Positions 3,644-60,685 of a DNA stretch of 64,000 nucleotides are shown one piece after another. The stretch comes from Bacteroidales bacterium (GTDB taxonomy: Bacteria > Bacteroidota > Bacteroidia > Bacteroidales > Muribaculaceae): assembly GCA_910575545.1 (NCBI GenBank), contig CAJTFH010000004.1, forward strand, positions 62,001 to 126,000. The letters are read 5' to 3'. Position 1 is the first letter of the stretch, and each line of letters starts with the position of its first letter. Both the position numbers and the translations under genes were made by a program. The notes beneath the pieces are model-generated. The model ran no database searches. It was not told the DNA's origin and worked only from the letters and a program-made list of their open reading frames with translations.

Positions 3644-3950
3644 GATAATTTTTGGTTGAAATTAGATATGTAAAAATATTGGTTGTCGATTTAAGATCCT
3701 TTGGTTTCCGTCATTGTAAAATCGGTTTTCATGGCCAACAAAAATGCCCTATCCGGTTTAAATTACCGGTAATTTTGTAGATTTGCCAGTCAAAATTACC
3801 ACACCAAAATATATAATGCGGACATCATGCACCCCAAATAGGTCTAACTATGTTTCAAAAATGGGGAAAATACGAAATACGCCCGTTTTTCGCATCCCCT
3901 TTACGATTTTAATCCCATGCGAAATCCCCTACCACCACATAAAACACAAA
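3644..3950. other. Intergenic region upstream of the FIVAR gene
   Basis: About 300 bases, AT-rich, without a credible gene. It should hold the promoter of the FIVAR gene. The nearest minus-strand match to TAnnTTTG is weak, close to the gene around 3677-3683. A better one (TAATTTTG, 3798 to 3791) lies within the palindromic element at 3760-3800. Confidence 0.5.
3760..3800. promoter_or_regulatory. Interlocking palindromes, possible operator
   Basis: AAATTACCGGTAATTT (3760-3775) is a perfect 16-bp palindrome. Its right half, GGTAATTTTG (3768-3777), also pairs with CAAAATTACC (3791-3800), so the half-site AAATTACC occurs three times. Both strands carry TAATTTTG, a match to the Bacteroidetes -7 motif TAnnTTTG. 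It lies 120-160 bases upstream of the FIVAR gene. It could be a dimeric regulator site or overlapping promoters; binding is inferred. Confidence 0.4.
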
Positions 3951-4125
3951 GGCGCTGTGTCGAAATTCGACCAACGCCTTTTTTGCATCCGGATGGAGAG
4001 GGTGCTGTCAGAATGGTTCAGATGGTAGGAGCCTGAGGGTGAGGGTGAAGGGAGTTGACTAAGGTCAATGACCGAACCCGAAGCCCTCGGGCGACGACCC
4101 AGATGAGCCATTATGACACACCCTC
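3951..4125 (-). repeat. 175-bp dispersed repeat, copy A
   Basis: This matches 45050-45224 on the opposite strand over the full 175 bases with two differences that I can see. One end contains an inverted repeat (GGCG..CGCC with an inner GTCGAAATTCGAC-like core) followed by TTTTTT, resembling an intrinsic terminator reading on the plus strand, against both flanking genes. A shorter internal hairpin pairs CCCGA with TCGGG. It contains no convincing coding frame. Confidence 0.9.
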
Positions 4126-4195
4126 TTTGTGCTGAAGCCCGGGATTATCCGCCACTCCCGCTGCAAGACCCATATTCAACCAACATGCCACCCGC

Positions 4196-20488: not shown

Positions 20489-20515
20489 CTTATGTGCGGC
20501 TGAGCCGCACATAAG
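20489..20515 (-). terminator. Hairpin after the GH2 gene
   Basis: CTTATGTGCGGCT pairs perfectly with AGCCGCACATAAG around a single G, a 13-bp stem. It lies about 80 bases past the GH2 stop and before the next gene on the minus strand. No long T-run follows, so termination is likely but not certain. Confidence 0.55.
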
Positions 20516-23859: not shown

Positions 23860-23892
23860 GTAAGCCGCGCGGAACAGTTCCGCGCGGCTTAC
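23860..23892. terminator. Bidirectional terminator between convergent genes
   Basis: A perfect 16-bp stem (23860-23875 with 23877-23892) has only one unpaired base at the turn and is followed by TTTATTA. It serves the GH43 gene on the plus strand and probably the flippase-like gene on the minus strand. The tight perfect stem suggests cruciform potential. Confidence 0.8.
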
Positions 23893-45049: not shown

Positions 45050-45224
45050 GAGGGTGTGTCATAATGGCTCATCTGGGTCGTCGCCCGAGGGCTTCGGGTT
45101 CGGTCATTGACCTTAGTCAACTCCCTTCACCCTAACCCTCAGGCTCCTACCATCTGAACCATTCTGACAGCACCCTCTCCATCCGGATGCAAAAAAGGCG
45201 TTGGTCGAATTTCGACACAACGCC
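45050..45224 (+). repeat. 175-bp dispersed repeat, copy B
   Basis: The inverted partner of 3951-4125, with two visible differences over 175 bases. It starts 20 bases after the GH97 stop. The AAAAAAGGCG..CGCC end would terminate minus-strand transcription, opposite to both neighbouring genes. A third, shorter and diverged relic lies at 60645-60685. Confidence 0.9.
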
Positions 45225-60644: not shown

Positions 60645-60685
60645 CGTCTGAACCGTTCTGACAGCGCCCTGCCCCATCCGGACGC
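60645..60685 (+). repeat. Diverged partial copy of the 175-bp repeat
   Basis: This 41-base stretch in the ftsA-ftsZ gap resembles the middle of the dispersed repeat: it has TCTGAACC, TTCTGACAGC and CCATCCGGA in the same order with a few substitutions. It lacks the terminator-like end. Probably a decayed member of the same family. Confidence 0.6.

Follow-up and report, generated by a model that had tools for sequence, protein, structure and literature searches.

Our aim was to understand what the 175-bp repeat at positions 3951-4125 represents, and how it came to occupy its present location. The locus lies in a 64-kb stretch of DNA (hereafter, the window), where a preliminary description had recognised two copies on opposite strands and a relic. 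All three are real. Copy 1 (3951-4125, plus strand) and copy 2 (45050-45224, minus strand) are each 175 bp long and differ at exactly two places: position 5 (C/T) and position 91 (G/T). With covariance model R1 they score 149.7 and 148.2 bits, respectively. The decayed fragment, at 60645-60685 on the minus strand, corresponds to the middle of the element. It comprises the spacer and the left arm of hairpin B (see below), and has three mismatches in a 23-base core. Note that this fragment was recognised from core-pattern matches and is not reported by model R1. The DNA flanking copies 1 and 2 is unrelated. Hence, the two copies do not belong to one larger duplicated block. The repeat was also said to have no coding frame. 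This holds for five of the six frames, which contain stops; one minus-strand frame is free of stops over the 175 bp, and we take this to be chance.

The element consists of two hairpins separated by a spacer. In copy 1, all parts being on the plus strand, hairpin A (3951-3984) is a terminator-like stem-loop (3951-3978) followed by six T residues; this feature, pointed out previously, is borne out by both sequence and fold. The spacer (3985-3997) contains CCGGATGG, which recurs with variation in copies from relatives. Hairpin B (3998-4125) forms a structured rod of 128 nt, whose internal loops are conserved and G-A-rich. The equivalent parts of copy 2, on the minus strand, are at 45191-45224 (hairpin A, again with T6) and 45050-45177 (hairpin B, assigned by sequence and its match to model R1). 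Folded as RNA, the plus strand has a predicted free energy of -97.6 kcal/mol and a z score of -11.0, compared to a z score of -6.8 for the other strand. Folded as DNA, the plus strand has a z score of -7.7.

While the window does hold two full copies, 'present twice' is too modest for the genome. The exact 23-base core, from the left arm of hairpin B, matches 54 times in the 3.27-Mb, 73-contig assembly, where the window occupies positions 62001-126000 of contig 4. Two additional matches appear if three mismatches are permitted, and a reversed-pattern control gave none. The 54 core-bearing copies occupy 54 distinct contexts, and the 128-base hairpin B is identical in 38 of them. We conclude that the repeat is dispersed and has spread recently. 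The number of distinct contexts also counts against assembly error or segmental duplication as the source. In a similarity search, where 40 of 80 candidates were scored, at least 40 copies were full or nearly full and at least 12 places, including copy 1, were 100% identical across the full 175 bp. Length is exactly 175 bp in 49 of the 53 copies measured. The 54th copy (L089), with an interrupted right end, is omitted from flank counts.

Related genomes, in which the preliminary description proposed a search, yielded many further copies. At the DNA level, matches were found in 11 of 61 genomes: the genome of origin and 10 of 60 relatives, the latter with diverged versions. Of these relatives, 8 are from the same genus (13 others searched) and 2 from the rest of the family (23 searched), while the 24 searched from the rest of the order gave no match. 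The covariance model, built on 17 sequences, matched 18 of 149 family genomes and 9 of 30 genera. Note that these values count the genome of origin and three weak matches (G013, G064, and G085, with E values from 7e-4 to 1.9e-6). Among named genomes, the exact core pattern occurs in 39 stretches from 15 assemblies, and the carriers are recorded as Muribaculaceae, Paramuribaculum, Porphyromonadaceae, Prevotellaceae, or Bacteroidales. The window itself probably comes from a Muribaculaceae-type genus. The preliminary description had suggested that the repeat was copied recently and may be a non-autonomous mobile element. Near-identical dispersed copies, further copies in relatives, and unrelated flanks support both ideas. 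The element is absent from the plasmid and phage collections searched, and no viral contig has the core pattern; we therefore reject plasmid or phage carriage. Hairpin A varies between genomes. In many of the copies examined from relatives the sequence of this hairpin is different, frequently GTGTCAAAAT...ATTTTGACAC, and is followed by a T-rich run; other copies have no recognisable hairpin A.

The fold of hairpin B is conserved. In a 17-sequence MAFFT alignment, double changes occur at 25 of 40 predicted pairs. With 43 distinct sequences this increases to 33 of 40 pairs, and 93.1% of 1683 cells are paired; note that the larger alignment was fitted to the covariance model and hence leans towards it. 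Covariation is 0.521, compared to 0.187 for shuffled data (0 of 500 shuffles reach the observed value); with slid partners it does not exceed 0.091. The non-Watson-Crick cells comprise 162 G-U and 29 C-A or A-C combinations. Since G-U cells are in such excess, the plus strand is the one that folds. However, G-T wobbles also form in DNA, so conservation of hairpin B fits RNA and single-stranded DNA alike. The proposed 'RNA-coding repeat' is thus right in that one strand has a conserved fold, but the selected molecule could be of either kind. Conservation is not confined to pairs: of the 37 columns with at least 93% conservation, 19 are unpaired, including the facing GA/GA positions. According to one published account (PMC8794818), template switching can itself produce compensatory changes in hairpins. 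Hence, part of the covariation need not result from selection. We would expect, as a matter of argument, that template switching erases internal loops; those of hairpin B are kept. No Rfam 15 family matches the window at the gathering score, and the best weak match to the element region has an E value of 4.8. We therefore reject a known Rfam RNA as the identity of the element.

Most copies are located just behind genes. A gene or tRNA 3' end is within 120 bp of 47 of 53 copies, in a count made by hand from open frames of at least 80 aa and tRNAs rather than curated genes. The background value is 53% of intergenic bases, taken from the 64-kb window alone with frames of at least 100 aa and tRNAs ignored. 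This placement could reflect selection against promoter insertion. We rejected L096 as a case of insertion within a gene, because the long antisense frame does not look genuine and the element lies 26 bp beyond the end of a 447-aa frame. Gene ends within 120 bp are on the terminator's side only for 20 copies, the other side only for 11, and both sides for 16, so orientation bias is weak. At both window copies, the terminator does face against the flanking genes, as stated previously. Across the genome, however, this is a minority arrangement (a gene end on the other side only, 11 of 53). Furthermore, at 36 of 53 copies a gene or tRNA that runs in the same direction as the terminator ends no more than 120 bp upstream. 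This counts against 'anti-antisense insulator' as a general role. Locally, hairpin A, as a predicted terminator, probably ends or insulates transcripts. The order of the hairpins is odd if an RNA from hairpin B is active, since the upstream gene's transcript should stop before reaching it.

Target-site duplications, which the preliminary description proposed to look for, are all but absent from the 53 copies. There is one clear case, L002:1482-1694, the sole copy with a long direct repeat (19 bp) at its ends. What emerges instead is an unforeseen signature, in which the two flanks tend to be inverted complements. For copy 1, the left flank CACAAA (3945-3950, plus strand) is the reverse complement of the right flank TTTGTG (4126-4131, plus strand). 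Abutting direct matches of 1, 2, 3, and 4 bases occur in 5, 2, 1, and 0 of 53 copies; the values expected from swapped flanks are 12.3, 1.6, 0.3, and 0.2. Hence, L002 excepted, abutting direct repeats are not enriched. An A at position -2 and a T at position +2 are each present in 81% of copies, and the commonest insertion centre is AA/TT (the slash marks the insertion point; 21 of 53). Position -1 is complementary to position +1 in 36 of 53 copies, compared to 22.3 in shuffles (0 of 5000 reach the observed value), and in the other 17 copies this first position is not complementary. Over four positions, complementarity is 130 of 212, compared to 95.8 (sd 5.4; 0 of 5000 shuffles). Over 2 and over 12 positions, the observed value is reached by 1 of 5000 shuffles. 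Perfect complementary runs of at least four bases are found at 16 copies, where 2.5 are expected, and the gapless complementary arms of flank pairs reach 12, 11, and 11 (L079, L019, and L072, respectively). The complementarity persists without the three longest cases.

The same signal recurs, more weakly, in relatives. Ends were set by eye for 29 of 58 copies, and the first position is complementary in 18 of these, compared to 11.4 in shuffles (20 of 5000). The analysis was repeated with 37 copies, leaving out those with unclear or cut ends, and one of the two L033 copies because its flank was a repeat. Here, the values are 22 of 37 and 15.8 (44 of 5000), with 66 of 5000 shuffles reaching the observed value over four positions and 203 of 5000 over three. 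Hence, the signal falls as copies are added (44 to 203 of 5000). We also considered possible empty sites at algH, the neighbour of copy L019. This gene is present in 13 of 14 genus genomes, with 61-78% amino-acid identity outside the genome of origin. In 5 of 12 relatives (L243, L245, L248, L252, and L254), algH follows what by eye looks like the end of that same upstream gene, and no element was seen in the 300 bases examined at those five loci. The intergenic DNA of relatives is unalignable to that of our genome, so the algH loci yield no alignable empty site. Consequently, both the lack of duplication and the making of flanks at insertion are read from filled sites.

A repeat of this type would need an enzyme supplied in trans for its mobility. 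The Y1_Tnp domain (PF01797) has no match in the genome of origin, with 5 of 14 control genomes positive. Hence, we reject a REPIN/RAYT or IS200-IS605 derivative. The IS110-type Transposase_20 domain (PF02371) is similarly without a match, with 4 of 14 control genomes positive, and only 1 of 14 genus genomes (G007) has it; an IS110/IS1111 derivative was rejected for this reason. There are three reverse-transcriptase loci, and Rfam detects group II intron domains beside them. Rfam detects none in the element, which matches the reverse-transcriptase regions over 10-11 bases only, at chance level (E 0.95 or worse). On both grounds, we reject a group II intron derivative. Inward-facing pairs of sequences resembling the element's right end, 0.1-7 kb apart, were absent at up to one mismatch from a list read by eye, in a search that would miss more diverged ends. 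Hence, the Y1, IS110-type, and right-end pair searches found no mobilising enzyme or autonomous relative in this genome. Separately, two reverse-transcriptase frames lie close to group II intron domains in L153:1-8700, near the start of contig 15.

The explanation that we favour, with somewhat better than even confidence, is a recently amplified, non-autonomous mobile double hairpin that is mobilised in trans, inserts without target-site duplication, and has flanks generated by fold-back copying. The 175-bp unit would comprise a terminator-like hairpin A and a long structured hairpin B, of which one strand folds, either as RNA or as single-stranded DNA; this folded strand may be the transposition intermediate. 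Recent amplification would have produced about 54 copies, mainly just behind gene 3' ends. Each insertion would occur at an A-rich/T-rich junction (A at -2, T at +2) using the enzyme supplied in trans. The mirror-complementary flanks, of variable length, probably arose as the element inserted or afterwards, by fold-back copying in the form of snap-back synthesis or of quasipalindrome template switching; the latter process is known from E. coli.

Alternatively, the flanks could be the old halves of a target. For this to apply, palindromes or stem-loops would already be present behind genes, and a structure-specific recombinase would recognise them and insert the element at their centre. We regard this as a credible but unlikely reading. 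It accounts for complementarity centred on the insertion point, with AA/TT as the commonest centre, and for placement behind genes. In addition, the insertion site in one relative (L031) is flanked by 12-base arms with interruptions. However, no gapless palindrome with arms of at least 9 was found in 255,846 sampled unique positions of the genome, while 3 of 53 insertions would need AT-rich gapless arms of 11-12. Stem-loops with arms of at least 9, and loops of up to 10 bases, do exist; 31 were listed and ten have loops of 1-2 bases. Two of these ten are parts of the element family itself, and the ten include near-palindromes in the window with arms of 17 (at 23875) and 13 (at 20501). Arms are at least 50% G+C in 20 of the 31 stem-loops, and in only 2 does the 5' arm end in AA. 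Hence, AT-rich gapless palindromes look rare in this genome, though near-palindromes are present. Palindromic targets are possible since near-palindromes with 1-2-base loops occur elsewhere in the genome. These, together with the weaker signal in the enlarged set of relatives, weaken the case for fold-back copying, which we still consider the probable origin of the flanks.

Two further readings concern the nature of the repeat. An ordinary MITE, derived from a DDE insertion sequence with ends resembling GNGGNTGTGTCAWAAT, is improbable. By eye, the outer 16 bases of hairpin A in copy 1 agree at 11 of 16 positions with the right end of the element, read in inverted orientation, and the likeness between the outer ends looks closer in relatives, for example G027. 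The short, non-coding, multi-copy nature of the element, its size, and its intergenic placement also fit. Conversely, a target-site duplication is clear in only 1 of 53 copies, and the right-end pair search described above was negative. Still less probable, in our judgement, is a functional cassette, of terminator plus structured RNA, that is under selection and copied by recombination or conversion instead of transposition. Strong structural conservation of hairpin B, and 3'-end placement well above the window background, would be explained. However, a burst is suggested by the 54 near-identical copies, their exact ends, and the many unrelated contexts in which they occur. Furthermore, there is no DNA match in three genomes of the same genus (G005, G008, and G012; 95-99% completeness), although G005 has 4 model matches.

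Bacterial genomes commonly contain small repeats, which are often classed as remnants of insertion sequences. One survey (Delihas 2007, PMC2229807) describes them as under 200 bp, non-coding, multi-copy, mostly intergenic, and giving transcripts with long stems. SPRITE is described, in another account (PMC10969869), as rho-independent-terminator-like. Our element shares with Correia/NEMIS, ERIC, RUP, BOX, and SPRITE a length below 200 bp, a lack of coding capacity, many copies, and a mostly intergenic location. It differs from them, by description, in having mirror-complementary flanks and no general target-site duplication. Two separate hairpins, a conserved folded rod, and occurrence in another phylum also set it apart from these small repeats and MITEs. 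Mitochondrial GC clusters and double-hairpin elements are mobile palindromic units without genes (PMC4478555). Our element can be likened to them in this respect, but those are mitochondrial. REPINs, and other palindromes mobilised by RAYT/IS200-IS605 enzymes, are paired extragenic hairpins that are not known to produce target-site duplications. While our element resembles REPINs in these properties, its genome is without Y1_Tnp and its unit combines a terminator-like hairpin with a structured rod. IS110/IS1111 elements insert at palindromes and some members have a structured non-coding RNA. Insertion at a palindrome and structured RNA would be points of likeness, whereas the lack of Transposase_20 is a difference. 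Comparing known families by description, and Rfam by sequence, we conclude that the element is a new sequence family, close in kind to known small bacterial repeats. No description of it was recognised in the open-licence PMC papers searched.

The element stands out for its inverted-complement flanks, general lack of target-site duplication, and a fold conserved across genera. Through it, dozens of genes in a group of gut bacteria are followed by terminator-like hairpins. If flanks do arise by fold-back copying, an unusual insertion or mutation process operates at hairpin elements; if palindromes are the targets, a palindrome-specific recombinase is indicated. A new class of mobile element would be a larger claim, and one that we view as doubtful. 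Here, a strand-folded double hairpin would insert without duplication, leave an inverted copy of its flank at the site by fold-back synthesis, and depend on an enzyme that recognises the G-A-rich loops of hairpin B.

Variants of the element were also noted. In the genome of origin, L232, L233, and L234 (contigs C2, C18, and C19) are diverged versions in which, by eye, the left arm of hairpin B contains an additional stem; in L232 and L233 the inner part is also different. On contig C6, L241:1080-1125 is a miniature palindromic form with only the outer part of hairpin B. L236:867-942 is a 76-bp inverted-repeat unit that has GTGTCAAAAT-type ends and no hairpin B. An apical motif, GGAG-stem-TGACTG, recurs in other family sequences and is common to the weak model matches L113 and L114; a stricter pattern of the motif has no match in viral contigs. 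At L113:1473-1892 the motif sits in a different inverted-repeat element, of approximately 420 bp, with unrelated ends. Finally, at L233:752-826, the tip of hairpin A seems to bear a second inverted repeat, with 33-base arms in all, and looks like one hairpin inserted into another.
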